From a virus, in IMG/VR virus record IMGVR_UViG_3300042564_000538, positions 1-39,811 of that record: a DNA stretch of 39,811 nucleotides. One strand, given 5' to 3'. The stretch's first letter is position 1; each line of letters starts with the position of its first letter. Shown piece by piece: positions 12,716-35,763 of this stretch. The notes beneath the pieces are model-generated. The model was not told the DNA's origin, did no database searches, and was given only the letters and a program-made list of their open reading frames with translations. Position numbers and translations under genes: made by a program.

Positions 12716-12723
12716 TATTTATT
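12716..12723 (-). promoter_or_regulatory. Late-promoter-like box AATAAATA
   Basis: Minus strand AATAAATA, close to the T4 late consensus TATAAATA, 27 bases before the ATG at 12689. A TATAAT follows it (12708-12713), but no -35 box is found 17 bases upstream, unlike the sigma70-type set. Confidence 0.4.
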
Positions 12724-13432
12724 TGCGTTTGGAGGCACGAATAACTCTATCATATTTGCGATCCCACTTAATTATTTGCTGTATAATCTTGTGTACAGCT
12801 ACGTTATTTTTATAGTCGTAGTTGAAGGTCTTTAGGAAGTAGTGTAGAGTTTTGGAATCACGATGCTTAGTTGCACGTTTAATGAGTTGTTCTGTGGTAT
12901 AGTCTGGTCTAAAGACTTTATAGTCTAATAGAACACAATGCGCATATGCTTGAATCTCATCGAACTCTGATAGATACTTGCGCTCTTTATCTACCTTAGC
13001 ATGACCAATTTTCTTATAAGGAACAACGTAATTGCTCCACTCATCATATCTTCTGTCAAACTGCATGAAGTGTATTAGCTCATGCATATGAACCTGAATT
13101 ACTTTATACTTAAATCTCTGCCATGAGACATCAGTAAAGTTAAAGTTATCGTAATAATGAGTGTGGATTTGTATGACGCATTGGCGATCTTCGGGAGAGT
13201 ATTCTCCACCAACACAGACGTAGTTGTCAAACATCTTAGCGTTTGACTTTTCTTGAAACCATTCTATTCTAGTGCGCCACTTCTTAAAGTAGTTAGTAAG
13301 ACCGACCGAATCATTGCGATATCGATCTAGGTCTTTCCACACTTTTGCTGGAATGTACTTAGCCCTAAATGGACGCTCATGAAAATTGAGTAGATCCATC
13401 CAGTCGAAGGTTGCTCTTTCCAGGAAATACAT
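12719..13432 (-). CDS. Putative zinc metallopeptidase (HELIH)
   Basis: The 237-residue protein has the zinc-binding HEXXH motif as VHMHELIHFMQ (H117, E118, H121). About 35 residues later comes the conserved-looking EFDEIQAYAH (E156-H165), whose acidic residue could be the third zinc ligand, as in gluzincin-type peptidases. No signal peptide or membrane segment is seen, so it would act in the cytoplasm or in the virion. Aromatic and basic residues are abundant. The gene follows the P-loop kinase gene by 24 bases and may belong to the same transcript as the modification block. The substrate is unknown; maturation of a phage protein or attack on a host protein are both possible. Confidence 0.65.
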   Translation of the reverse strand: MYFLERATFDWMDLLNFHERPFRAKYIPAKVWKDLDRYRNDSVGLTNYFKKWRTRIEWFQEKSNAKMFDNYVCVGGEYSPEDRQCVIQIHTHYYDNFNFTDVSWQRFKYKVIQVHMHELIHFMQFDRRYDEWSNYVVPYKKIGHAKVDKERKYLSEFDEIQAYAHCVLLDYKVFRPDYTTEQLIKRATKHRDSKTLHYFLKTFNYDYKNNVAVHKIIQQIIKWDRKYDRVIRASKRK

Positions 13433-13456: not shown

Positions 13457-14059
13457 TTAGGCTAAGTGCTGATTCATAAATGCAAGAACTTTCCCTTGCT
13501 CCTCTAAGTTGGTGTTTACAAACTCAGTAATATAGGGCATCAACTCGAAATTAGAGAGGATGTTACTATATTTAGTTGCCCTACCTTTTAGGAAAGTCTC
13601 GGATTGGTCGGAACCACGATCTGCATAACGCTGTTTAAGCATAGCATCTGGAACCTTCAAGTATATTACCTGAAGATCCGTATTCTCAAGACGCATTGAG
13701 AACTCTAGGAAGGACTGATTGAAGATTCTATCACCTTCGAATAGGATATTTGAGTTGGTTTCCTTAACGAACTCTTGAGCCACTGGCTGGACTGCCATAG
13801 ACAAACGATCTGTACCAGCGAAGGTTTCTCCATCTTCATACTTACCGAGGATGTAAAGATCAAGTGCCTTACAATAGAGTGCAGGGAGCATCTTCTTGGG
13901 CTCTACCTTCTCCCACTCATGCGCTTCCATAAACTTACGGAACAGAGTAGTCTTACCAGTTCCTGGCTGACCACCTACAGCAAGAAACTTACGTTTCTTG
14001 ACATCACCTTTAATGAGTTGGATAGAAATAGTATCTGCCACTCCAAACTTATCATGCAT
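13457..14059 (-). CDS. P-loop kinase, candidate hydroxymethylpyrimidine DNA-base kinase
   Basis: The 200-residue protein starts at the ATG at 14059, chosen because GAGGAAG lies 6 bases upstream; a TTG start at 14074 is less likely. Walker A is VGGQPGTGKTT (28-38). A lid-like arginine pattern, KQRYADRGSDQSETFLKGR, lies in the C-terminal half, consistent with a small-molecule or nucleotide kinase of the P-loop fold. In known thymidine-hypermodifying phages, a P-loop kinase phosphorylates 5-hydroxymethyluracil in DNA before amino acids or amines are added. Here it overlaps a small gene that follows an ADDT-like transferase gene, so this role is plausible but inferred from context. A general nucleotide kinase cannot be excluded. 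Confidence 0.65.
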   Translation of the reverse strand: MHDKFGVADTISIQLIKGDVKKRKFLAVGGQPGTGKTTLFRKFMEAHEWEKVEPKKMLPALYCKALDLYILGKYEDGETFAGTDRLSMAVQPVAQEFVKETNSNILFEGDRIFNQSFLEFSMRLENTDLQVIYLKVPDAMLKQRYADRGSDQSETFLKGRATKYSNILSNFELMPYITEFVNTNLEEQGKVLAFMNQHLA

Positions 14060-14477
14060 TTCGTGCTTCCTCAATCAATTGAATCAATTCTTCTTTAGTG
14101 AAAACATAAACCCTACCATAGAAGTGGTGTGTATCTTCATCAGGTAATTTCTTCTTCGTGAATGTCATTTTGTTAATGACTTCTCTGGTAGCTTTCTTAG
14201 CAATATTTTCTTTAATATGATCTGCATAGTCTGGTTGAACTTCTTTTAGTTTCAACATTTCCATTTCTGAAACTTTATGATCAACTACAATGAGATTCAT
14301 ATCTCTTCTATCAAGAAGATCGTGTACTGAAGTTGTATTGATACTAATTGTTGGTCCACTAGTAGCAGTAGTATAAGTACTTCCCATTGTAATCCCACTA
14401 GTGATACCAGAAGAAGTAATAGTAATCAAATCCTGCGCTGGTGTGGTAATAGTATTACCCATATTAATGTCGCTCAT
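14052..14477 (-). CDS. Small protein with Thr/Ser/Ile/Gly-rich N terminus, unknown
   Basis: The 141-residue product has two parts. Residues 1-50 are repetitive and Thr/Ser/Gly/Ile-rich (TITSSGITSGITMGSTYTT), likely beta-structured or disordered. Residues 51-141 are charged and helical and end TKEELIQLIEEARNA. It overlaps its neighbours on both sides (ATGA-type at 14474-14477; 8 bases at 14052-14059), so it is probably co-translated with the ADDT-like transferase and the kinase. I do not recognise the family. The N-terminal style is more typical of virion proteins than of enzymes. Confidence 0.6.
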   Translation of the reverse strand: MSDINMGNTITTPAQDLITITSSGITSGITMGSTYTTATSGPTISINTTSVHDLLDRRDMNLIVVDHKVSEMEMLKLKEVQPDYADHIKENIAKKATREVINKMTFTKKKLPDEDTHHFYGRVYVFTKEELIQLIEEARNA

Positions 14478-15493
14478 ACAAATGCCTCCAATCCTAAAAG
14501 TTGTGGTTGTTCATCATCAAACATCCAGTCTAAGTTTTCTATTCTACCTGATCTAATAAAATTAGGAAACTTTTCTTTATCAATACCACGTTCATGATCT
14601 AAACGTAAATCAATAGTTTCATTTCTTGCTTGCCATAAAACATTCCAATCAATACCATACCATCCATCTGATTCGCATTGTTGGATTTCTTCACATTGAC
14701 GATCTAGGTAGTAACCCAAATAGCGTCCATGTTTATCACGGAAGATCTTCTTGAATGAACACAAGCAAGTTTCCATTGTAAAGAAGTCTACTTGACTTGC
14801 CACTTCTGGGAATCTATGTCGTACTTCTTCAAGAATACTCCTGCCATTTGCCTCAAGTCGTTGATACTCCAATGTAGTGAGTTTTCGATCCACATCGTCT
14901 TCTTGTCCAAGGGCATAAAGTAATCCATTACGATGAGAACGAGAGCCATCATAATCGTCCAGCATAAGACTAGTGGGCTCAATAACAATACCAGCAGTGT
15001 GCTTAAGATGTTGCATATAGAACCAAGTACTATAACGACCAAATTTATGCAGGCTTCCTTTAAGAGTTGCCCACAAATTTGTAAAGTTTTCATGTTCGTT
15101 GTCTCCATAATAACTCTCTAGTTTCTCACGTTGTGATTTACCATCAATGAACTCTTGATAAGAAGCAAACATCGAAGGTAAGTGCCCCTTGTTCCACTTT
15201 GTATCAGTTTGATAACGAAGTCGTTTGTAGTTGGCAGTGTTCCATTGGGTAATTCGATCTACTGTTGCTAACTCAAAGTCTGGGAATTCATTCATGAGAA
15301 CCCAAGAAGTTGGAAGGTAGTAAGTATTACCGTAAAGCCATGCTAACCATAAACGCTGTTCATCATTATGTTCATATCGTTTGTTTAGATAGTTGGTAGC
15401 CCATACCGCTGGATCACAGTCATCATACTTCATTGACCATGCGTACCAGCGAATGAATGCTTCACGTCTGTTTTCTGCTAATCTATAATCCAT
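14474..15493 (-). CDS. Putative ADDT-like DNA base hypermodification transferase
   Basis: The 339-residue protein has a dense set of aromatic and basic motifs: LWLAWLYGNTYYLPTSW (48-64), YQTDTKWNKGHLP (94-106), HKFGRYSTWFYMQ (149-161), DDYDGSRSHRNG (179-190) and METCLCSFKKIFRD in the C-terminal half. I associate this pattern with the amino-acid:DNA transferase / glutamyl-putrescinyl-thymine pyrophosphorylase group predicted and partly tested in thymidine-hypermodifying phages, where such enzymes replace the phosphate on 5-hydroxymethyluracil by an amino acid or amine. Which of these families it belongs to I cannot settle. The C terminus LLGLEAFV resembles the polymerase C terminus. It starts at the last base of the upstream gene. 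Confidence 0.55.
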   Translation of the reverse strand: MDYRLAENRREAFIRWYAWSMKYDDCDPAVWATNYLNKRYEHNDEQRLWLAWLYGNTYYLPTSWVLMNEFPDFELATVDRITQWNTANYKRLRYQTDTKWNKGHLPSMFASYQEFIDGKSQREKLESYYGDNEHENFTNLWATLKGSLHKFGRYSTWFYMQHLKHTAGIVIEPTSLMLDDYDGSRSHRNGLLYALGQEDDVDRKLTTLEYQRLEANGRSILEEVRHRFPEVASQVDFFTMETCLCSFKKIFRDKHGRYLGYYLDRQCEEIQQCESDGWYGIDWNVLWQARNETIDLRLDHERGIDKEKFPNFIRSGRIENLDWMFDDEQPQLLGLEAFV

Positions 15494-16788
15494 TACACTT
15501 TAACTTTGGTTTGTTTCTTGAACGAATTCAATACTACATATTTAATTTTACAGTTGGGATGTACACGCATCATAGCCTTCTTCAATTTAGTTTCTGAATC
15601 TGTCCAGCGTTCATAGTCACCAATACCTGCATGGTGAGTAACAATAATACCTTTCCAAACATCCATCTCACCAGTCTTATTAAGAATCGCACCCAATCCA
15701 GCATTATAAATCGAACCTGACGTAACACTAATCACTGCCATCTCTGGATCCATATCAGTAATCTGACGAATTATAGAATCTAAGTCTGGTTTAGAATAAG
15801 TTTGGAAGTTCAATTCAGCATGGGCAGCATCAGTCTTAATACGTTCAATAGCTGACTTCAAGTTAGCTGAGATTTGGCTTTTAGTCCATTGTGGATACAG
15901 AATCTCTTCACACGTAGTTTTAAACTTATCGCTAGTCAACAGCTGGAAGTTTTCATCTTGATCTTTTAGATTGCGAGAATAAAGATTAATGATGGCACGT
16001 TGGCAGTCTTGACTGCTATTTGGTTTTTTGATTTTGGGATTGTGGTTTGCAATGATACCAAAATGGTCAATGTTCGATTGTTTGTCCAAGAATTCGCTAC
16101 TGTTAATAAAGATAACAGGTGCACTTGGCCAACCAGCTTCAGCAACTGCACGTGACGTATGGTTACCATCAACAATAGTACGAGTACCATCTTTACTAAC
16201 GCACACGATGATTGGAGAAATATTCTTACGTGCTTCTACAGGATCGTGTTTCATACGCTCAGCAATGTCATGAACGTGATTTTGATCAATCATAATCAAG
16301 CGAACTTGGTTCTGCGCATATCCAGCAATCTCTGTGGTAGAGGTTTCATACACTTGGTACTTACCTTCTTTGACAGCTTCCCAAATATCATCAACAACAT
16401 CACTATCAACTAGATTGAAAATGTCTGGATCTTCTTCAACTGGATCAATTCCATTAATCCAGTCAATACCGACTTTAGCTTCTACATCAGTAATTGTGGT
16501 GTAGTCAAGAATTCCTGCACCACCACCATTTGATTTGTTATAAAATTTATCACTGCGACGTGCGTCAGCATGCTTCAGAAGTTTGCGCTCATGAGTAATA
16601 GCTTCTGATACTGTGCCACGAAAAAGAATAGAACGATGAAGTTCACCCATACCCCATGCTTGCTTCAATTCAGGATCAACTGATGAAAAGATATAACCAT
16701 CATTTACATCTGAGTTTTTACGAAACCCGATATACTTTTTACCGTTTTTTTGATTTCGATATCCATAAACAAATGCTTCAAAAGACAT
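15493..16788 (-). CDS. GIY-YIG-like plus ParB/sulfiredoxin-like fusion protein
   Basis: The start at 16788 (MSFEAFVYGYRNQKNG) is chosen because GGAG lies 9 bases before it; the ATG at 16803 is embedded in the ribosome binding site. Residues 5-90 look like a GIY-YIG nuclease fold: YGY (8-10), KYIG (18-21), a possible catalytic glutamate (E67) and an Asn-rich end (KFYNKSNGG). Residues 155-235 contain a ParB/Srx-type domain: SPIIVCVSKDGTRTIVDGNH with the DGNHTSR signature at 207-213. ParB-like domains bind nucleotides or DNA. The remaining 190 residues are helical and then alpha/beta (MAVISVTSGS). Its neighbours suggest DNA modification; alternatively it is a nuclease acting on host DNA. Confidence 0.65.
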   Translation of the reverse strand: MSFEAFVYGYRNQKNGKKYIGFRKNSDVNDGYIFSSVDPELKQAWGMGELHRSILFRGTVSEAITHERKLLKHADARRSDKFYNKSNGGGAGILDYTTITDVEAKVGIDWINGIDPVEEDPDIFNLVDSDVVDDIWEAVKEGKYQVYETSTTEIAGYAQNQVRLIMIDQNHVHDIAERMKHDPVEARKNISPIIVCVSKDGTRTIVDGNHTSRAVAEAGWPSAPVIFINSSEFLDKQSNIDHFGIIANHNPKIKKPNSSQDCQRAIINLYSRNLKDQDENFQLLTSDKFKTTCEEILYPQWTKSQISANLKSAIERIKTDAAHAELNFQTYSKPDLDSIIRQITDMDPEMAVISVTSGSIYNAGLGAILNKTGEMDVWKGIIVTHHAGIGDYERWTDSETKLKKAMMRVHPNCKIKYVVLNSFKKQTKVKV

Positions 16789-16814
16789 GACAAAATTCTC
16801 CATAATATAATACT

Positions 16815-16843
16815 ATTATACTACAAAAATGAATTTAAGTCAA
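16815..16843 (-). promoter_or_regulatory. Sigma70-type promoter inside the modification block
   Basis: Minus strand: TTGACT (16838-16843), 17 bases, TATAAT (16815-16820). The -35 and spacer lie in the 3' end of the GNAT gene. It would drive the GIY-YIG/ParB-like gene and those after it independently of the dioxygenase operon. ATTATGGAGAAT follows as leader. Confidence 0.75.
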
Positions 16844-17429
16844 CACTTTCTTGCACCTTATAAGACGATGCTAGGCTTCCCTTCCGACCTGAAAATAATG
16901 CCTTACGAATTGTAGGGTCATTTTCATCGTAGATTCCATCCTCTAGTAGACCATTTATCTTGAAGATGCTTAGGGAACAACCTGATTTCTGTTTGCCCCA
17001 AAAAGTAAAACTTAAGGATTCGTAAAAGGGTACTGCAGGTGCCTCGGCAGATACTCTGAAATAAACCGCACCTCGCCCCACTATATCGGTGTAGGAGCGC
17101 AGAGTGAGTTCTTTGGCTACACCTTTACGTCTATGCTTGTTAAATGTATGTAGCAATTGTAGGTTAGCAACCTTAGGCTCAGTACGACTAAGAGTAGTAA
17201 TAATTGCACCCATGAGTTCACCATCATCGTTAAAAGCACCAAGACATTCATCCCACTGCTCTTGCATATCTGCTTTGGCTCTGAATGTCTTGGCGAAACC
17301 ATCGGCTTTGTCGTCAGTGATTGCTGCGACAAATTCGTCTCTAGTGCATTTACGCAACTGCAAGGTATTCACGTTGTTTGTTGCCACGTTCTTTATCCCA
17401 CTTTGTCTTTTCCCATCCAACATACTCAT
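16821..17429 (-). CDS. GNAT-family acetyltransferase
   Basis: Up to 202 residues. The central part LMGAIITTLSRTEPKVANLQ, the acetyl-CoA pyrophosphate loop HRRKGVAKEL and the later AVPFYESLSFTFWG are the ordered signatures of the GNAT fold. Acetyl-CoA-dependent transfer to an amine is the usual reaction. The first roughly 20 residues overlap the amidoligase gene, so a GTG start at 17387 or 17372 is also possible. In this block the acetyl acceptor could be an amino group on a modified DNA base. The C terminus SVDLNSFL resembles the clamp-binding-type C termini of the phage polymerase and dioxygenase. It is translated from the dioxygenase side, and the next promoter sits within its end. Confidence 0.75.
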   Translation of the reverse strand: MSMLDGKRQSGIKNVATNNVNTLQLRKCTRDEFVAAITDDKADGFAKTFRAKADMQEQWDECLGAFNDDGELMGAIITTLSRTEPKVANLQLLHTFNKHRRKGVAKELTLRSYTDIVGRGAVYFRVSAEAPAVPFYESLSFTFWGKQKSGCSLSIFKINGLLEDGIYDENDPTIRKALFSGRKGSLASSYKVQESVDLNSFL

Positions 17430-18228
17430 TAAGATCCCAAACGAATGGTGGGAACTTGTAGTTGTCTGCAGCTAGAATTTCTTTAACACTTGGTCCATCG
17501 TTTAGCGCAGCATCAATAAACTTCTCTGCAAAACGGAACTGTGATTCAATCTCGTCACGTTTAGTTGACGAACGGAAACAACGGAACTCGATTGTACCTG
17601 TATGTTTCATGCAGTAAGTATTGATTGCGTAGCGGAATGGACGACCCATTGATACACCATCTTTGCCAGCAGCATGTAACTTGATAAAGTGTTCAAAATC
17701 TGTTGCTAGATTGATGATATTATCACACATGTATTCTGGCATTTCTCGTCCACCATCATACTTGAGATACATCTTAGCACCCTTGGAACCTTTCATCTGT
17801 CCAGTTTCATAGAAACCATAACATGACTCAATGGTGTCTGTTTGATTGGCTTTGATATAAGCAACTAACTTCTTCAATGAAGCCACATCATCTTTAAGAC
17901 CTGGAACGAACACGTGAAGGTGACCATGATTGACGCATGATGCAGAAGGTTGATTGCCGTTATCAACAAAGAACTGATGCAGTTCCATTACACGATCTAC
18001 TTGTTCTTGCCAAGTAGCAGTTGGCTTGGTATTAATCTCTCCACCCATGTAAGGTTCAGTGCCCATGGGATCGCAAGCAACATACTTGAATGGTTCATGA
18101 ATGTTTACAATATCAGTTTCAGCAAATTCCCATTTACCAAGATGCTCAGGTAGAGTCAAACGACGATCTACATCACCCCACTCAATCTCATAACCCCATG
18201 TAAACTTATCAGATGCGTACTGTTTCAT
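17350..18228 (-). CDS. Amidoligase (glutamine-synthetase-like fold)
   Basis: The 292-residue protein shows the markers of the amidoligase group related to gamma-glutamylcysteine and glutamine synthetases: GYEIEW (E14, E16), GGEINTKP (E64), NHGHLHVFVPG (H101, H103, H105) and GTIEFRCFR (E214, R216). Such enzymes use ATP to join a carboxyl group to an amine or ammonia; the acidic and histidine residues bind metal-ATP. It overlaps by 20 bases the gene for a class II glutamine amidotransferase, a pairing that suggests ammonia supply or peptide-type ligation. In its present company it may build or attach an amide side chain on a modified base, or tag a protein. Confidence 0.75.
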   Translation of the reverse strand: MKQYASDKFTWGYEIEWGDVDRRLTLPEHLGKWEFAETDIVNIHEPFKYVACDPMGTEPYMGGEINTKPTATWQEQVDRVMELHQFFVDNGNQPSASCVNHGHLHVFVPGLKDDVASLKKLVAYIKANQTDTIESCYGFYETGQMKGSKGAKMYLKYDGGREMPEYMCDNIINLATDFEHFIKLHAAGKDGVSMGRPFRYAINTYCMKHTGTIEFRCFRSSTKRDEIESQFRFAEKFIDAALNDGPSVKEILAADNYKFPPFVWDLNEYVGWEKTKWDKERGNKQREYLAVA

Positions 18229-18904
18229 ATTCTATCCCCTGCAAATCTTTATTAATAATATCAACTCTTTCCATGTTCATTGATAGGTAACCATCAACTG
18301 TCATGTACATATTCATAGGAACTTCAACTGGTATATCAAGACCTGCACGTTTGGCAATGTCTTTAGTAGAAGTAATTATACAACCATTATCAAATAAAGT
18401 AAAATAAATCGGACGTTTACCATTGCGGTAGAAACGAACTTTCTTGTCGAGTGAAAGTTCGCATACACCCATTGACATGTTAGAATATTCTCTCAATGGA
18501 TCTTTAGAGTGAAGAACTAACTCGCTATCGTTTTTAGTCATGCAGTCATAACCATACAAGTCTTTCCATTTCTCTGGCGACTCTTGAGAGATGACGCCAT
18601 TGTGAACAATACTTTTAGTATCATCTGCCATGGGTTGATTATATTCTAAGTCACTGGTGCTATATCTGCAATGCCCAATGAGGTAAAGATTACCATCCTC
18701 ATTGATCATCTCTTCTAAATTGTCCAAATGATTAAACTTGTCTGCAGGAACTGATTCTTTAAATGTAACAATTTTATTGTTTAGAACAATAGAAATCCCA
18801 GTAGCATGCATACCACGAATCTTAGACTCATGGAAAACTCTGCGTAGGGTTTCAAAATCATCCTTAGTTGGTGATTGAATTACAGCACCAATTACGCTAC
18901 ACAT
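18209..18904 (-). CDS. Class II glutamine amidotransferase (Ntn hydrolase)
   Basis: The 231-residue product starts MCSVIGAVIQ, so Cys2 becomes the N-terminal nucleophile after methionine removal. Further class II markers are RGMHATGIS (30-38), GHCRYST (77-83, with the glutamine-binding arginine), VHNGVI (100-105) and NDSELVL (125-131). All are as in the PurF/GlmS/AsnB glutaminase domain, which releases ammonia from glutamine. It has no fused synthase domain, so its partner must be a separate protein; the overlapping amidoligase gene is the obvious candidate. Its ATG overlaps the TGA of the TET/JBP-like gene (TGATG), suggesting translational coupling. Confidence 0.85.
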   Translation of the reverse strand: MCSVIGAVIQSPTKDDFETLRRVFHESKIRGMHATGISIVLNNKIVTFKESVPADKFNHLDNLEEMINEDGNLYLIGHCRYSTSDLEYNQPMADDTKSIVHNGVISQESPEKWKDLYGYDCMTKNDSELVLHSKDPLREYSNMSMGVCELSLDKKVRFYRNGKRPIYFTLFDNGCIITSTKDIAKRAGLDIPVEVPMNMYMTVDGYLSMNMERVDIINKDLQGIEYETVRI

Positions 18905-20244
18905 CAGAAGAATCCTTCAAGTGAAGATGCTTTCTCAGCTTCTGGGTGATACTTTATTAGAGTTTCACGACCAAGTTTCTTTTCGCAGTATTCATACCAC
19001 TCATCAGATGCCCACATGGAAGCTGATACACCATTCCAAAGATGACGCCACTCTGGATGTTCTTTGTTTAGTCTGCGTGACTCTACAAAGTTAAAACGGC
19101 ATTCTTCATACTCTTTGCTACCCAACTCAAGCATCTTCTCACGGAAGTAAACTACCAATGAGATGCGCTCAGATCCTTCTTCGCAAACGATAGGTGTATT
19201 GCCATGCATAACTTCGTGGTTGTTAATCAGAAGCAAGTCTCCTGGACGTACATTAACTGCAATGCGATACTCGGGTGCGATTAAATAACCACCTGAATAC
19301 TTACCATCATTGGAAAGTGTCAACAGATTAGACAAACCTTCATTCAAGTCACCAGCATCATAGTGAGCAGCAGTGCGGAATGTTTTGTTCACAGTCACTG
19401 TTGTAAATGGAGTTCCTGGAACCAAGAATGATTGATCCAATTTCTTGGCAGCTTCCATCTGATTGTTGTAACGCCATGGAAGAAGATCCTTAAATCCTTG
19501 AGCAAGTTGCTGTAGGAATGGGAATGCCATGGCAAACTTCTCTGGATTCTTAGCAGTATAAGCTGTTGCACGACCATAAGGAATACGTGGGTAACGATCA
19601 AACCATCCAGCAATACCAGAGTTTACTGAGTTGGCATATGTAGTTGCGCAGATTAGATCTTCAGCAACGTGAATAGCTTCTTTCTTTGCATCATCTTGTG
19701 GGAGTTTACGAGCATGCTCAATCCATTCTTCGAAGTTGAACTTCTCTTTCTTTACACGATCAATAGACCATACACGTGCACGATTAGATACTTCTGGTTT
19801 CTTACCAGCATACTTCTTACGAATCTCTTCAATTGGATCTTCTCCAAAAAGATTCTCAGATGGCTTCAAGAAATAGTCAACAATGTCATACTCATACTCA
19901 GTAACCCACTCACGATTACCTAGCTTCTCACCACGTGGTCCAGCTGCAAGACCACGATTCTGCGTTTCAATTGCAGCTTCTCTTAGACCAGCGTATGCTG
20001 CGTCTTGTTGTTCTTTAGTGAAGTAGTTTTTGCGGAACTTGAAAACAATCTTGCGCTCATCCAAACCAGTTTCACATGTGCTGCAGTCTCGGTCGCAACC
20101 TGCTTGATTGCCAAGATCGCAATCTGGTGGAGCATAAACATCACAATCTTCTTCAACCAATAAGTCATAGTGACTCTCATCAACAAACTGACCAAGTAGG
20201 TGTTGACAATCATGTTTTCTATCTGCTACAATAACTTTTACCAT
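18904..20244 (-). CDS. TET/JBP-type Fe(II)/2-oxoglutarate DNA base dioxygenase
   Basis: The 446-residue protein starts at the ATG at 20244, with AAGGAG 7 bases upstream. The C-terminal half holds the double-stranded beta-helix core with TET/JBP hallmarks: TAAHYDAGD (H294, D296), GGYLIAPEYRIAVNVRPGD (318-336), NNHEVMHGNTPI (iron-binding H343 or H347) and SERISLVVYFR (R360, for 2-oxoglutarate). TET/JBP enzymes oxidise the methyl group of 5-methylcytosine or thymine in DNA; phage members are known. Five cysteines at 34, 42, 50, 54 and 57 could bind metal, which is not part of the core family. The protein ends ASSLEGFF, nearly the same as the polymerase end SSLEDFFG. It lies 10 bases after the replicative helicase gene. 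Confidence 0.8.
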   Translation of the reverse strand: MVKVIVADRKHDCQHLLGQFVDESHYDLLVEEDCDVYAPPDCDLGNQAGCDRDCSTCETGLDERKIVFKFRKNYFTKEQQDAAYAGLREAAIETQNRGLAAGPRGEKLGNREWVTEYEYDIVDYFLKPSENLFGEDPIEEIRKKYAGKKPEVSNRARVWSIDRVKKEKFNFEEWIEHARKLPQDDAKKEAIHVAEDLICATTYANSVNSGIAGWFDRYPRIPYGRATAYTAKNPEKFAMAFPFLQQLAQGFKDLLPWRYNNQMEAAKKLDQSFLVPGTPFTTVTVNKTFRTAAHYDAGDLNEGLSNLLTLSNDGKYSGGYLIAPEYRIAVNVRPGDLLLINNHEVMHGNTPIVCEEGSERISLVVYFREKMLELGSKEYEECRFNFVESRRLNKEHPEWRHLWNGVSASMWASDEWYEYCEKKLGRETLIKYHPEAEKASSLEGFF

Positions 20245-20254
20245 TTTATTCTCC

Positions 20255-21655
20255 TTAGAACTTGAATCCATTAAAACCTTCACTACTATGTATACGTTTG
20301 CCAAAGTCTGATTTATCAAACATTGGTTTATCATCATCTTTCATATGACCAGCATCGGACAAACCAGCTTGCGCAGAAATCTCTACGTCATACAGTTTCA
20401 TCTTCGATCGATCAACTCCAATGATAAAACGCTTGTAGTAATTTGGATCATTATAACGATTCTTAAGTTGCTTCACAATAATTTGATTCAACTGCTCTAG
20501 TTCTTCATTACTTACCAACGCAAACATAAAGTCGGCAGTGGCTGGTAATCCAAACGATTCAGAAGTATCTTCAAGACCTGGATCTGAATTAGTGAATCCA
20601 GATCGAGTAGTTTGCGTGGCTGATACAATGGGAACATTATATTCAACTGCAAGACCACGGAGTTCTTCAGCAATTGCCTTAATATATGTATAAGAGTTAA
20701 TCGAACCACCTTGCTTCATTCGTTGGCTTGAACAAATATTAAGATAGTCAATCATAACAATATCAGGTTTGAATTCACGTTTTAGTTTTAACTCTTCAAG
20801 CAAGGCACGAAAGTGACCTGCATGGGCAGATGCCGTTGGATACTCTTTGACAATCAAGTGTCCTTGAGTTTTTTTGGCAATCTTATCAATACGACTCTCA
20901 TAGATGTCACGATCGACAACCTTCAATTCATCCATAGTAAGATTCAATAAGTTTGCATCAATACGTTCAGCGATACGTTCTTCTGCCATTTCCATGGTAA
21001 TGTAAAGAACATTACGACCAGCAGACAGCGCACCAGCTGCAACGTGACACATAAACAAAGACTTACCAACACCAGTACCAGCCAGACAGATGTTTAGTGT
21101 TTTCTTTGACAAACCACCTTTAGTGATTTTGTTGAACATGTCCAAATCGAATGGAACTTTCTCTTCAACTCTGTGATAATAATCATAACGAGAAGAAGCA
21201 TCTTCAATGTAATCATGACCAACATGGTTATCAAAACATACGGAAAGAGCATCAGAAAGGATAGAAGGAATGGCGTCTTGTTGTAGAGTCTTGTCACGTC
21301 CATCGATGATTTTAATTGAATTTAAAATTGCATTATAGACTGCACGATCTTTACAGAACTTCTCTGTTTGACCGATTAGCCATTCTTGGTTTGGTTCTGC
21401 TTTGTCAAATAACCTGACCAGTTCCTGCATCTCAGGAATTTCTTTATCAGTAAATCCTTTTAGATTACCAATTTCAATCTGAATTACTTCAGGTGAAGCT
21501 GGCTTGTTATAATCTTCAAAGAACTTAATCAGCAATGAGACTATTGCTGCCTCTTTACGATCACCAAAGTAATCTCTCTTCAAGTGTGGGACTACCTTGC
21601 GGCAATACTCTTCACTGTGAATCAGGTTCGATAATATCGCCTGTTCAATTCTCAT
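20255..21655 (-). CDS. 41: Replicative DNA helicase, T4 gp41-like (DnaB family)
   Basis: The 466-residue protein has a helical N-terminal domain and a RecA-like core. Walker A is AGTGVGKS (192-199), a Walker B-like strand is DIVMIDYLNICSS (about 300), and VPIVSATQTTRSG is a DnaB motif. The product unwinds the fork on the lagging strand and works with the gp61 primase. The ATG overlaps the stop of the upstream small gene (TAATG). The TET/JBP-like gene begins 10 bases after its stop, so fork helicase and base dioxygenase are probably co-expressed. Confidence 0.92.
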   Translation of the reverse strand: MRIEQAILSNLIHSEEYCRKVVPHLKRDYFGDRKEAAIVSLLIKFFEDYNKPASPEVIQIEIGNLKGFTDKEIPEMQELVRLFDKAEPNQEWLIGQTEKFCKDRAVYNAILNSIKIIDGRDKTLQQDAIPSILSDALSVCFDNHVGHDYIEDASSRYDYYHRVEEKVPFDLDMFNKITKGGLSKKTLNICLAGTGVGKSLFMCHVAAGALSAGRNVLYITMEMAEERIAERIDANLLNLTMDELKVVDRDIYESRIDKIAKKTQGHLIVKEYPTASAHAGHFRALLEELKLKREFKPDIVMIDYLNICSSQRMKQGGSINSYTYIKAIAEELRGLAVEYNVPIVSATQTTRSGFTNSDPGLEDTSESFGLPATADFMFALVSNEELEQLNQIIVKQLKNRYNDPNYYKRFIIGVDRSKMKLYDVEISAQAGLSDAGHMKDDDKPMFDKSDFGKRIHSSEGFNGFKF

Positions 21656-23551: not shown

Positions 23552-23580
23552 ATTATACATTAGTTCTCATTGCAAGTCAA
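23552..23580 (-). promoter_or_regulatory. Sigma70-type promoter for thioredoxin-uvsX-helicase genes
   Basis: Minus strand: TTGACT (23575-23580), 17 bases, TATAAT (23552-23557). The -35 box overlaps the stop codon of the upstream oxygenase gene. The ATG at 23528 with GGAG lies downstream. Confidence 0.8.
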
Positions 23581-24125
23581 ATGTATTTCGGGTTCTTTAC
23601 ATCAAACACAAATGTAATTCTTACTACATCTCCAAGGTTTTCTGTTCCATGTGGAAGTTTATTGTTGAACCAAAGTAATGTTCCTGGCTCAACATCATAA
23701 TACTCATCACCTACAAAGTATCTATATCTTCCTTGAATGGATAGATGATAACGATCTCTCGATTGATAGTAGGTTCCAATGTCAATATGTTTACCAACAG
23801 TTCCACCAACTGGAAGTGATAGAAATCCACAACGACTAACTGTGCGGAAATAACTACCAAGGATTTTTAAAATCTCAGTATGACGATCCATTGCTGGTGT
23901 TGGAATACAAATTTCTGTATCTCCAACATACTGTCCTTGTTCTTCAATACCACCCATTACAAGTTGTAAAACACCAGCTTCTATTTTTGGAAACCCATGT
24001 TCTGTAACTAGATCAGAAACACCTTCAATGTTTTTCTGAGCACCCCAGTCTTCAGGATACTTTTTAAGTTGTTCAAGAACTTTTGAGACATCTATGCCTG
24101 TCTCTAGCACTTTAATATTATCCAA
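23577..24125 (-). CDS. Aspartyl/asparaginyl beta-hydroxylase-like 2-oxoglutarate oxygenase
   Basis: The 182-residue form starts at a TTG (24125) because GGAGG lies 6 bases upstream and the codon precedes the polymerase stop by three bases. A longer ATG form (24194) would overlap the polymerase gene by 77 bases and lacks a good ribosome binding site. Core features are GKHIDIGTYYQSRDRYHLSI (HxD iron ligands and substrate-side residues), VEPGTLLWFNN, then KLPHGTENLGDVVRITFVFD with the second histidine and the 2-oxoglutarate arginine. This order matches the Asp/Asn hydroxylase branch, which hydroxylates protein side chains or free substrates. It is a second oxygenase in the window, unrelated in detail to the TET/JBP-like one. 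Confidence 0.7.
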   Translation of the reverse strand: MDNIKVLETGIDVSKVLEQLKKYPEDWGAQKNIEGVSDLVTEHGFPKIEAGVLQLVMGGIEEQGQYVGDTEICIPTPAMDRHTEILKILGSYFRTVSRCGFLSLPVGGTVGKHIDIGTYYQSRDRYHLSIQGRYRYFVGDEYYDVEPGTLLWFNNKLPHGTENLGDVVRITFVFDVKNPKYI

Positions 24126-26607
24126 AGAAATCCTCCAATGAACTTTGTTCTTCAGTCTTCCAACCCAGCGGTTCAATAACTGTTTGAAGCGCATCGAGGA
24201 AAACTTTCTCGAACTGTAAATCGTAATCTACATAACTATGTATGCCGAATTCTTTAGGCAGTTCTTGGGGGAATGCAATAACATCTTCTTGAAATGGATT
24301 GGGCTTCTTGACATAAACGAACTTGATCTTGTCACCATCTTTAATTGCTTGATATTTCTTCTCAAGACCCAAACGCTTACAGTGGTGATTGAACAACAGA
24401 GAACCACGAACATGAATCGGTGTACCCTTAGTATAGATTGGTGAACCTTTGTAAGTGTTCATACCATTAACACCACGTGGGAATGCAATCTCTTCAACAG
24501 GTAATTGATTAAACTCTTTACGGAACTCTCCAACGAACTTGTGTAAATTCTCTTGACTACCTTCAAGGATAACCATGATGAATTCTTTCAGCTTGCTGCG
24601 AATGACTGCTGGTGTCGATGACTTAACCATCTCAAGACCCATAACCTTCAACTTAGGTTTGGCAAACTGAACACCCTCTGAGTTGTGCACATTAAGAATG
24701 TATCGCTTCTTGGCAGTCCAGATGGCTTTGTCGGCTAGAACCTCTCGCTTCATGACCATCTTTTGCGAATACGCATTCATATACTTTGCCAACTCTTGAT
24801 AACCTGTATCAATGAATGGCTGCAGAACTTCCTCACAAATCTTATCCATGGTCTTGATTTTCTGTTCGGTAGTTTTACCCACGCAAACACGTTCAATCAA
24901 TACCTCAAGTGTAAGATAAATCGAGTCAGTATCAATGGCAACAACATAATCAACGTCAGTAGTCTTTAGCGTCTTGTTCATAAAGACATTCAACTTGTTA
25001 GCCATCCAACGAATGGACAACTGACCAGAAGTTGTAATACCCTCAGCCATACGGATATCAAAGTATCGGAAATACTGATTACCCATGGCACCATAGGCAG
25101 AGTTCAATGCAATCTTCATAGCCATCTGAAGGTTATTCAGTCGGCTAATTTCCTTCAATAAACTAACTTTGGTTTTATCATTCTGATACTCTTGTTCAAT
25201 GGCAAGCATTTGTTTCTTGAACTTGGAACGATCCTTGTACATCTTTTCCATTAGCTCAGGCATGAACCCTTTTACATCTTTACGATAACACCAACCATTT
25301 GCAGTCATCGATAAGTCACGACGATGCGCATAGCTAGTATCAACTTCTTGTGTCAAAAGTTTCTCGACATTGCATGGAATCTTTTCAGAAGTCAATGTTT
25401 CTGGACTGATGTTATACTGCATGATCAAGTGAGGATACAGAGAGTTCAAGTCAAACGAGGCAAGCCATTTATGTTGACCAACAATTGGATCTTTAACATA
25501 CGCACCCTCAAACTGCTCTGCCTTAGAAGAGAAACCCTTTGCTGGAATTACAATCTTACGCTCACGCAGGTGATTATAAATGATGGCATCCCACATACGT
25601 ACTTGCGAGAATACATCTTCATAATTGATCTTAGCATTATATGCCATGGTCAAACACAACTCAATGAGACGCATCTTATCTTCCATGCGGTCGACAAGTT
25701 CAACGTCTTGAATGTTATACTCAACAAACTCCTGCCAATGATTCGTATAGAAGTCTTTGAAAGATTCTCCTGGATTCTCTTTCTTCTTATCACCCAACTC
25801 TTGCTCAGCAATGTAGTCAAGACGATATGACTCTTGCTTTGAGTATGTGAACTTCTTGTAGAGTTGTAGATAATCTAGCTGACTAATACCATGAATGTCA
25901 TAGTGGATTTCTTCGTTGCCTTTAATGAACGTCTTGCGCTCATTGATAACTCCCCAAGGACTCATCTTGTTGGCGAATGTATCACCCAACTCACGTTGAA
26001 TGCGTCGCACCAAATATGGCATGTCAAAGAAGTCAGTGTTCCAACCAGTAATGATATCAGGGTAGTTGCCTTGCCACCAGATCATGAACTCTTTAAGAAG
26101 ATGTTGTTCGTTGTTGCAGTGTTTGTATACTACATTATCACGATTGTGAACGAACGCACGTGAGCCGAATGTCACGATTTGTTTGGAAGCCAGATCCTTG
26201 ACAGTGATCAATAGAACTTCTTCATTGGCAGCTTTGATATCTGGAAACCCATACTCAGTGGCAGTCTCAATGTCAATGGTGCAGACTTTAATCTGTTCCA
26301 TATCAAAGCGAACATCATAGTCATAATTGTCACTGATATATTGACACACGTAATTGGTATTACCATAAATGTCAAAACCCTGCACTTCTTCGTAACGCTT
26401 AACAAACTCACGTGTGTCTTTAATCAGTCCAGGTTTCATCTCATCAACAATGGCACCATCCAATGTACGCCACTCGCTATCTTCTTTCTTGGAGTTGACG
26501 TAAAGAGTTGGGTAGTAGTCAAGTTTGTGTGAGAATGGCTTTCCGTTTTCATACCCACGGACAAGCATACGATTGCCGTAAGGGAAGACGTTTGTGTAAA
26601 ATTGCAT
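24118..26607 (-). CDS. 43: DNA polymerase, T4 gp43-like (family B)
   Basis: The 829-residue protein starts at ATG 26607 (MQFYTNVFPYGNRMLVRGYE), overlapping the dexA stop as TAATG. The 3'-5' exonuclease motifs are TIDIETA (D112, E114), GWNTDFFDMPY (D195) and YNIQD (Y298, D301). The polymerase motifs are A DLNSLYP (386-392), B KIALNSAYG (498-506) and C AIDTDS (D559, D561). The C terminus SSLEDFFG is the expected sliding-clamp-binding tail. Length is a little below T4 gp43 (898), mostly in the palm/thumb insertions. It is the replicative polymerase of the phage. Confidence 0.95.
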   Translation of the reverse strand: MQFYTNVFPYGNRMLVRGYENGKPFSHKLDYYPTLYVNSKKEDSEWRTLDGAIVDEMKPGLIKDTREFVKRYEEVQGFDIYGNTNYVCQYISDNYDYDVRFDMEQIKVCTIDIETATEYGFPDIKAANEEVLLITVKDLASKQIVTFGSRAFVHNRDNVVYKHCNNEQHLLKEFMIWWQGNYPDIITGWNTDFFDMPYLVRRIQRELGDTFANKMSPWGVINERKTFIKGNEEIHYDIHGISQLDYLQLYKKFTYSKQESYRLDYIAEQELGDKKKENPGESFKDFYTNHWQEFVEYNIQDVELVDRMEDKMRLIELCLTMAYNAKINYEDVFSQVRMWDAIIYNHLRERKIVIPAKGFSSKAEQFEGAYVKDPIVGQHKWLASFDLNSLYPHLIMQYNISPETLTSEKIPCNVEKLLTQEVDTSYAHRRDLSMTANGWCYRKDVKGFMPELMEKMYKDRSKFKKQMLAIEQEYQNDKTKVSLLKEISRLNNLQMAMKIALNSAYGAMGNQYFRYFDIRMAEGITTSGQLSIRWMANKLNVFMNKTLKTTDVDYVVAIDTDSIYLTLEVLIERVCVGKTTEQKIKTMDKICEEVLQPFIDTGYQELAKYMNAYSQKMVMKREVLADKAIWTAKKRYILNVHNSEGVQFAKPKLKVMGLEMVKSSTPAVIRSKLKEFIMVILEGSQENLHKFVGEFRKEFNQLPVEEIAFPRGVNGMNTYKGSPIYTKGTPIHVRGSLLFNHHCKRLGLEKKYQAIKDGDKIKFVYVKKPNPFQEDVIAFPQELPKEFGIHSYVDYDLQFEKVFLDALQTVIEPLGWKTEEQSSLEDFFG

Positions 26608-27179
26608 TAAACTTGTTTTCCGTACATTAGTTGCATCGCATCCAGAGCACAATCATGCACTGGGTGATGTTTAATTACTTCGTGGCGTTTGAAATCAGGA
26701 TGCACCACGTCAGTATATCCATTGGATGTTCCGTAAAGCATATCAACTGCAGTTCGTACATCTCTCCACATATTATAGTCTGTGATAGAATGCATGTCAA
26801 GTTTCTTGGCGAGTGAATCAATTGCCATCTGATCCAGAGAACCTCGTGCCCACATAGTTTGTTGGGATGGGTTTTTAAACTGGTTCATGTAATTATGCAA
26901 TCTGACGATAGCTTCTTCAGAAAGTAAGTCATCACTACTCACATCAAATGATACACTTCTTGTGTAAGAATGTTGATTCTTCCACCACTCCAATGTGCCA
27001 AGATCTATGGTACGCTTCAGTCTTTCAATCTGATCTTTGGCATTTAATTTAACAAAGCAAGCATTATCTAGCAGATTCTGATAGGTAGGTTTTTCAGATG
27101 GCTCAAAATGTATTAATGCTGCCGATAAAACGACAGCATTAGACTCAACACCTAGTGTCTCTATGTCAAAGATAAACAT
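26607..27179 (-). CDS. dexA: DexA-like 3'-5' exonuclease
   Basis: The 190-residue protein has the DnaQ-type exonuclease motifs FDIETLG (D5, E7), ARGSLDQMAIDSL (Exo II) and HDCALDAMQLMY (Exo III). T4 DexA degrades single-stranded or host DNA and is not essential. Position next to the polymerase gene is usual for T4-like phages. The ATG overlaps the stop of the preceding small gene by one base. Confidence 0.88.
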   Translation of the reverse strand: MFIFDIETLGVESNAVVLSAALIHFEPSEKPTYQNLLDNACFVKLNAKDQIERLKRTIDLGTLEWWKNQHSYTRSVSFDVSSDDLLSEEAIVRLHNYMNQFKNPSQQTMWARGSLDQMAIDSLAKKLDMHSITDYNMWRDVRTAVDMLYGTSNGYTDVVHPDFKRHEVIKHHPVHDCALDAMQLMYGKQV

Positions 27180-35106: not shown

Positions 35107-35763
35107 TTAGAATGTCGAGTCAGCTTCAACTGCTACGTAATAAACCAATTCGCTTGTAGATGCTTTGAAGCGAGAGATTTTCTTGCTAGAGATGCTAACG
35201 ATGTAATCTCCTGGAAGCATCTTAAGATTCTCTACCTTCAGATTAGCTTGGAAGGTTTTATCGGTAGAACCAACATGCGCATTGTAGCTGTTACCTGTGA
35301 CATTCTTTTTATCACCAACTGCCACAACGATCTTACTACCATCACCGATAATCTGCAAGTCAGTGGCACGCAGAACAGATGCAGTACGATGGATCATGTT
35401 TAACATAGTTGATGTCAATGTGAATTCAATCTCAGCTTCTGGGAATGTAATTTTGCGGGATGGAACAGTCAACACTGAAGCATCTGCTGCGAAATACTTA
35501 ATGCTGCTACCATTCTCTTTAATAGTGACGAACTTCTCAGCGAATTCTAATTCAGGATCATTGAACAATGATAACGCACCCAAGAACTCATTAAGATCGT
35601 AGATACCAAAGTCTAGTGGGAACTGCTCACTAACGATAGTATCAGACATCACATTCTTTTGTGCACTGATTGTTGAAATTTCATTACCAGCTTTCAAAAG
35701 CATATTGCTGTTAATGCCAGCAAAATTCTTAAAGAGGTTTACGGTGTCTTTACTTAGTTTCAT
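35107..35763 (-). CDS. 45: Sliding clamp, T4 gp45-like
   Basis: The 218-residue protein (MKLSKDTVNLFKNFAGINSN) has the two-domain clamp pattern with QFPLDFGIYDLNEFLGALSL in the first half and YIVSISSKKISRFKA near the end. Three copies form a ring that tethers the polymerase and, in T4, late transcription factors. Length equals T4 gp45 (228) within 10 residues. A promoter lies 44 bases upstream and a strong terminator follows, so the clamp can be expressed alone. Confidence 0.93.
   Translation of the reverse strand: MKLSKDTVNLFKNFAGINSNMLLKAGNEISTISAQKNVMSDTIVSEQFPLDFGIYDLNEFLGALSLFNDPELEFAEKFVTIKENGSSIKYFAADASVLTVPSRKITFPEAEIEFTLTSTMLNMIHRTASVLRATDLQIIGDGSKIVVAVGDKKNVTGNSYNAHVGSTDKTFQANLKVENLKMLPGDYIVSISSKKISRFKASTSELVYYVAVEADSTF

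Follow-up and report, generated by a model that had tools for sequence, protein, structure and literature searches.

What is the function of a block of eight genes that lies directly behind the replicative helicase gene of an uncultured T4-like phage, a freshwater virus of bacteria? The block occupies positions 13457-20244 on the minus strand of the window analyzed here, that is, the whole 39.8-kb fragment (39,811 nucleotides) deposited as IMG/VR record IMGVR_UViG_3300042564_000538. Pfam and PHROG recognize T4-type genes in the window for a polymerase, helicase, recombinase, clamp, clamp loader, and ligase. An initial annotation, made from the letters alone, had read the block as a DNA-base hypermodification island encoding a TET/JBP-like dioxygenase, a class II glutamine amidotransferase, an amidoligase, a GNAT acetyltransferase, a GIY-YIG/ParB-like fusion, an ADDT-like transferase, a small protein, and a P-loop kinase. 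All eight open reading frames are present, and their ends overlap or abut (Table 1). With a probability that we put at roughly 0.5, the cassette is the adduct-building part of a post-replicative DNA base hypermodification system, in which a TET step would be followed by a kinase step, a joint glutaminase/ADDT step, and acylation. The gene combination is not confined to this virus and is widespread among related IMG/VR contigs.

The cassette genes are under purifying selection. Compared with three relatives, synonymous changes far outnumber amino acid changes, and dN/dS was 0.06-0.29 where computable, which argues that the genes are real. The dioxygenase scores 89.4 bits against PF12851 (Tet_JBP; curated cut-off, 34.9). 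Its iron site, HxD (H294, D296) plus H347, and its 2-oxoglutarate residue R360, numbered from the start codon at 20244, are invariant across 16 TET relatives. Likewise, the transferase reaches 80.3 bits against PF18724 (curated cut-off, 26.2) and belongs to the family of ViI gp199 (3.2e-58). Both proteins thus stand in the families first assigned to them rather than in unrelated ones, and Pfam likewise scores the glutaminase, GNAT, and kinase above their cut-offs. Sequence searches of the PDB with ADDT, amidoligase, and glutaminase profiles gave no match, which leaves ADDT with no solved relative by sequence, and folds were needed for the other two. The AlphaFold model of the glutaminase (pLDDT 86) has PurF as its top Foldseek match (7.6e-11) and also matches GlmS; purF is the best NCBIfam match as well (4.9e-7). 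The cysteine, HCRYSTSD, HNG, and ND are invariant among its relatives, so that the nucleophile, the glutamine-binding motifs, and the N-terminal nucleophile (Ntn) fold of class II enzymes are all in place. For the amidoligase, the Pfam match falls below its cut-off (Amidoligase_2, E 0.0085, 16.4 versus 22 bits), but the predicted structure supports the identity: the AlphaFold model (pLDDT 69) matches gamma-glutamylcysteine synthetase, YbdK, and glutamine synthetase (VIA Z about 10), and the residues expected of such ligases, namely E14, E16, HxH (H103, H105), and T-x-E-F-R (E214, R216), are invariant.

Comparison with relatives reveals that these genes travel together. We fetched relatives from IMG/VR with TET, ADDT, and DN1 queries, DN1 being the HExxH-containing protein that borders the cassette downstream; because the searches were seeded in this way, the proportions that follow are not abundances. 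Among 113 complete TET-to-DN1 intervals, 65 were distinct at 95% identity. Glutaminase, a second GNAT, ADDT, and kinase fill 38 of the 65 slots, while the window's own combination (glutaminase, amidoligase, GNAT, ADDT, and kinase) fills 15 and a version with glutaminase, a distant amidoligase, ADDT, and kinase fills 4. Two more hold ADDT, an inositol-1-phosphate synthase, a HAD protein, and kinase. The last six contain a glycosyltransferase or a protein resembling one, with neither ADDT nor kinase: one TET-associated glycosyltransferase (TAGT), one GT1 with a cytidylyltransferase-like protein, and four GTb. Pfam confirms TAGT (PF20691, 4.8e-19), GT1, GNAT, and the inositol-phosphate synthase; GTb had no Pfam match and is glycosyltransferase-like by eye only. 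In most relatives, the slot includes a distantly related GNAT (c4).

Co-occurrence across related phages, which the initial annotation had proposed as a check, supports its tailoring logic. In the 57 distinct relatives that keep the gene order, glutaminase, ADDT, and kinase are always joined by one or more N-acylating enzymes. Specifically, a GNAT or amidoligase is found in 57/57 glutaminase slots versus 0/8 other slots. The kinase is found in every ADDT slot and in no other of the 65; counted over complete slots, it accompanies ADDT in 58/58 and occurs in 0/12 without it. An earlier 48-slot set gave 42/0/0/6 for ADDT versus kinase (Fisher 8e-8, with related phages not independent). The ADDT/kinase pair is also replaced as a unit by glycosyltransferases behind one and the same TET, as a pathway for tailoring hydroxymethyl bases predicts. 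Slot exchange and co-occurrence are direct evidence for functional modules, made up of these genes, behind a common TET. In the inositol variant, seen at 8 loci, ADDT and kinase are kept and the glutaminase and acylating enzymes are replaced by the synthase and HAD protein; the glutaminase end therefore behaves like a supplier of the nucleophile. The synthase and HAD genes lie between ADDT-415 and the kinase at L041:3667-7216, L172-L178, and L004 (Cr30), where an inositol-decorated base is possible. In Stenotrophomonas phage Moby (L168:7001-11621), such a pair adjoins QueC, queuine-transferase, and QueE genes, which are of the deazaguanine DNA modification type.

How might such a module build an adduct? 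In phages ViI and M6, ADDT and a kinase together provide the known means of substituting the oxygen of an activated hydroxymethyl group on thymine, and a lone class II glutaminase yields ammonia, which in PurF displaces pyrophosphate. ADDT occurs with a 5-hydroxymethyldeoxyuridine (5-hmdU) kinase in ViI, and its gene lies beside or near a kinase gene in VioletZ and VPALA. In the proposed pathway, TET would act on a 5-methylpyrimidine (most likely thymine) that is already part of the DNA and oxidize it to a 5-hydroxymethyl base (5-hydroxymethyluracil), whereupon the P-loop kinase would phosphorylate the hydroxymethyl group to create a leaving group. The glutaminase would then free ammonia from glutamine, with which ADDT would displace the (pyro)phosphate to give a 5-aminomethylpyrimidine, in a split, DNA-level analog of PurF. 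Finally, the new amine would be acylated by GNAT, the amidoligase, or both. The same logic would lead to an inositol ether in the inositol variant. We infer ammonia as the nucleophile because the best match of the glutaminase is PurF and because this protein always accompanies the 339-amino-acid ADDT, amidoligase or not, and is absent where inositol synthesis replaces it. Its strict co-occurrence with GNAT or amidoligase likewise fits an amide adduct.

Alternatively, an amino acid or amine made elsewhere could be the ADDT nucleophile, and the glutaminase and amidoligase could then amidate or extend it to give an amidated amino acid adduct of hydroxymethyluracil. ADDT relatives of characterized phages use amino acids, as the family name implies, the amidoligase fold matches carboxylate-amine ligases, and an amidoligase is present in 19 of the 57 glutaminase slots. 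Yet the other 38 have none, so the glutaminase cannot depend on it, and neither a pyridoxal phosphate enzyme nor a decarboxylase was seen in the cassette. We consider this route somewhat unlikely.

The C termini of the enzymes suggest where modification would take place. The window polymerase ends in SSLEDFFG, and similar tails close TET (SSLEGFF), GNAT (VDLNSFL), and ADDT (GLEAFV), as they do the replacement GNAT (PSLEEFL), TAGT (NTLDEFFG), and GT1 (VDLESFFG) of relatives. Scored on distinct sequences as [LI][DEN]x[FL] at the C terminus, the tail is present in polymerase (34/34), TET (91/92), ADDT (82/86), the second GNAT (51/52), GNAT (7/11), TAGT (1/1), and GT1 (2/2), and it is near-absent from glutaminase (0/72), amidoligase (0/22), the small protein (0/53), DN1 (0/76), and kinase (1/71). 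A stricter pattern applied to 588 other open reading frames gave 27 matches, about 24 of them polymerase by inspection. Its presence on TET, ADDT, GNAT, and two of the alternative glycosyltransferases but not on glutaminase, amidoligase, or kinase suggests modification at the fork, and the tail seems to single out proteins working on DNA. TET, ADDT, and GNAT would do so while held by the gp45 clamp; GNAT is accordingly predicted to act on the DNA adduct rather than on a free metabolite. In T4, the polymerase ends in SLDFLFG and gp55 carries SLDFLYE near its end; gp43, gp55, and gp33 bind the clamp through interchangeable C termini (PMC2988020), and the alpha-glucosyltransferase copurifies with gp45 and binds it in vitro (PMC13216743).

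Shared endings of this kind could also reflect chance or structural similarity instead of clamp docking, given that the motif is short, that the ADDT and GNAT tails are looser than that of the polymerase, and that clamp binding is a prediction. This is improbable in light of how the tail is distributed: it is near-universal in four cassette families and near-absent both from the others and, polymerase excepted, from the 588 open reading frames. Furthermore, the polymerase, 5-hmdU kinase, and ADDT share a different tail in ViI and Ag3 (in ViI, VNLLSMMGKKG, VSLLGLMRKA, VNLMSLLKR), and in Vibrio phage VPALA (L248:31154-34346) STAKRLW is the exact ending of ADDT, the HMUDK_hel kinase, and a protein annotated as a DNA methyltransferase. 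The TET of HTVC112P, a virus unrelated to T4, has no such tail. A queuine-transferase-like protein of Moby ends in NSLDDLFG, resembling the polymerase tail. In the part of the literature that we covered, we found no published statement that modification enzymes and polymerase share tails.

Several observations weigh against the hypermodification reading. The window's kinase matches PF18751, and among the 25 Pfam matches listed of 27 at E<=1, neither PF18723 nor PF18747 appears, the 5-hmdU DNA kinase families that the VPALA and ViI kinases do match. The kinase is tailed in ViI and untailed here. T4 alpha-glucosyltransferase ends in FDIITK, without the polymerase motif, and since it binds gp45 all the same, tail and clamp binding are not identical. 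In addition, glutaminase and amidoligase genes also cluster in LUZ24-like Pseudomonas phages such as tf, without TET or ADDT; wall or peptide modification has been suggested there, and for such pairs cell-wall modification or superinfection exclusion (PMC10580990). By extension, the glutaminase, amidoligase, and GNAT of the window might make a diffusible compound, or modify protein or cell wall, beside a simpler TET/kinase/ADDT system. We hold this to be very improbable: in the relatives, the three occur only with ADDT and kinase and are gone where ADDT is replaced, their genes sit between TET and ADDT, and the GNATs bear the polymerase tail.

Further evidence concerns the base. A TET acting on 5-methylcytosine would normally bring a phage C5-methyltransferase, and a nucleotide-level route to the hydroxymethyl group would use a hydroxymethylase of the thymidylate synthase family. 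The search covered 20 related records, four of them complete genomes and eight of them contigs of 126-171 kb (the window itself being a fragment). Cytosine-5 methyltransferase (PF00145) was found in 0/20, by a search that was positive in 10/14 control genomes. A thymidylate-synthase-type hydroxymethylase (PF00303; positive in 9/14 controls) was missing from 19/20, the sole match being the thymidylate synthase of Cr30. With neither enzyme found apart from that synthase, thymine is the simplest substrate, as it is for phages with ADDT and a kinase, and TET most likely oxidizes thymine in DNA. The absence of a methyltransferase is not proof, as these records are contigs of unstated completeness. 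Under a contrary proposal, 5-methylcytosine made by the host or by an undetected phage enzyme would be oxidized to 5-hydroxymethylcytosine and then decorated. Phage TETs described in other systems act on 5-methylcytosine, and those reported to do so are associated with methyltransferases; the closest relative with a solved structure, human TET2, is a 5-methylcytosine dioxygenase (profile match, 2.9e-7); and the TAGT family includes the beta-glucosyl-hydroxymethylcytosine-alpha-glucosyltransferases of T4-like phages. Besides the missing methyltransferase, however, no dCMP hydroxymethylase was found in the related records searched, and ADDT/kinase chemistry has been characterized on thymine only. 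In an alignment with TET2, D299 and R368 in the phage TET stand opposite the Asn and His, respectively, that we take to be base contacts of TET2, R368 being an invariant Arg; because these residues differ, the specificity of TET2 is not transferable. We therefore regard cytosine as an unlikely substrate and retain thymine as the preferred one.

Not every gene in the block belongs to the pathway. The GIY-YIG/ParB gene, which the initial annotation had counted as a member of the island, was rejected as a pathway enzyme because it is homing-endonuclease-like and missing from most relatives. It is dispensable, and where it is not simply absent, unrelated inserts (c19, c34) take its place, marking an insertion hot spot. 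The small protein could be assigned to no Pfam, PADLOC, or NCBIfam family, its only PHROG match being weak and itself of unknown function, and DN1 had no Pfam or PHROG match at E<=0.001. In other cassettes, radical-SAM proteins are inserted beside ADDT (two in L057, 12870-16354; one in L055) and extra 2-oxoglutarate oxygenases (c17) adjoin TET, possibly for further tailoring steps. A second oxygenase of this type lies at 23577-24194 of the window, between the polymerase and recombinase genes (Asp_Arg_Hydrox, 4.5e-6). In GenBank, relatives of TET from DLP6, Cr30, S-CBWM1, and HTVC112P carry the annotation SNF2 DNA repair protein, and relatives of the kinase that of adenylate kinase or terminase small subunit. 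Promoters in the window were at chance level. Nine terminator-like sites were seen versus 4.9 expected, only one of them on the coding strand (17986-17970, within the amidoligase gene).

Table 1. Coordinates of the cassette, its borders, and the replication genes discussed
Feature	Position	Strand	Evidence or remark
HExxH-containing protein (DN1), downstream slot border	12719..13432	-	conserved behind every cassette kind
P-loop nucleotide kinase	13457..14074	-	PF18751 (Ploopntkinase3) 8.3e-10
Small conserved protein	14052..14477	-	in 39/58 complete slots (ADDT cassettes); not essential
ADDT (aGPT-PPlase clade 2) transferase	14474..15493	-	PF18724 2.3e-22
GIY-YIG + ParB-like protein, probable mobile endonuclease insert	15493..16803	-	phrog_314 7.7e-11; PADLOC HEase 3.2e-9; ParB_N 0.013
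GNAT acetyltransferase	16821..17429	-	PF13673 1.3e-7
Glutamine-synthetase-fold amidoligase (COOH-NH2 ligase)	17350..18228	-	structural model; Pfam sub-threshold
Class II glutamine amidotransferase domain alone, mature N-terminal Cys	18209..18904	-	GATase_6 1.8e-8
TET/JBP 2-oxoglutarate/Fe(II) dioxygenase, 446 amino acids	18904..20244	-	PF12851 1.9e-25
T4 gp41-type replicative helicase, upstream slot border	20255..21655	-	phrog_19 1.2e-126; adjoins TET in relatives
T4 gp43-type DNA polymerase, reference clamp-binding tail	24118..26652	-	PF00136, phrog_262
gp45-type sliding clamp, proposed docking partner	35107..35763	-	PF09116 5.1e-10

Phage systems that combine TET with glycosyltransferases are already known, and Iyer is said to have predicted in 2013 that TET-made hydroxymethylpyrimidines are starting points for further modification. 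The cassette has the same TET gene in the same place as those systems, and its slot is filled by a TAGT cassette in L080, L081, and L085-L087; the window's cassette differs in carrying kinase, ADDT, and glutaminase instead of a glycosyltransferase and in the lack of a C5-methyltransferase among the related records. Like thymidine hypermodification in ViI and M6, it pairs an ADDT of the same Pfam family with a neighboring nucleotide kinase and relies on activated hydroxymethyl chemistry, and as in ViI its enzymes share a tail with the polymerase. Unlike ViI and M6, which use a dUMP hydroxymethylase (ViI has a thyA-type gene), it would obtain the hydroxymethyl group from TET acting on DNA; it also has another kinase family and adds glutaminase, GNAT, and amidoligase. 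PurF offers a parallel in the proposed displacement of (pyro)phosphate by ammonia, except that the synthase half would here be a separate protein, presumably ADDT on DNA, and not a phosphoribosyl pyrophosphate transferase. T4 alpha-glucosyltransferase (PMC13216743) is likewise a base-modifying enzyme docked to the sliding clamp, as the tails predict for the window; the motif that it lacks is present in several window enzymes. Finally, the CmoX/CmoY carboxymethylcytosine system (PMC12783734) also converts a phage DNA base to an amide with an ATP-dependent ligase, and some members have a glutaminase domain, but there the carboxyl is on the base, the ligase is asparagine-synthetase-like, and TET, kinase, and ADDT are missing. 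What is new, as far as we have checked, is that the glutaminase/GNAT/amidoligase branch forms a conserved module, that a branch with inositol exists, that cassettes are exchanged in one slot, that a methyltransferase is absent, and that enzymes carry the clamp tails.

Our findings allow a broader picture, which we offer tentatively. These phages may possess a replisome-tethered modular platform, in which a clamp-docked TET oxidizes thymine in new DNA and one slot accommodates interchangeable cassettes for what is added next: aminomethyl amides derived from glutamine, an inositol ether, or sugars. The amides would then represent a new class of natural DNA base, for example, 5-(acylaminomethyl)deoxyuridine, and would arise from ADDT and a PurF-like glutaminase acting together. 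Such a platform would include a thymine-oxidizing phage TET that leads to hydroxymethyluracil with no need for a hydroxymethylase, and it would add glutaminase-fed base modification to phage chemistry. The polymerase tail would be a simple sequence signature by which to pick out, among unknown phage proteins, those working on DNA at the fork, and it makes the timing of modification relative to replication directly testable. More generally, the phages offer a natural experiment: the TET gene and the slot stay constant while the chemistry downstream takes at least four forms, so that gene content indicates the chemistry.

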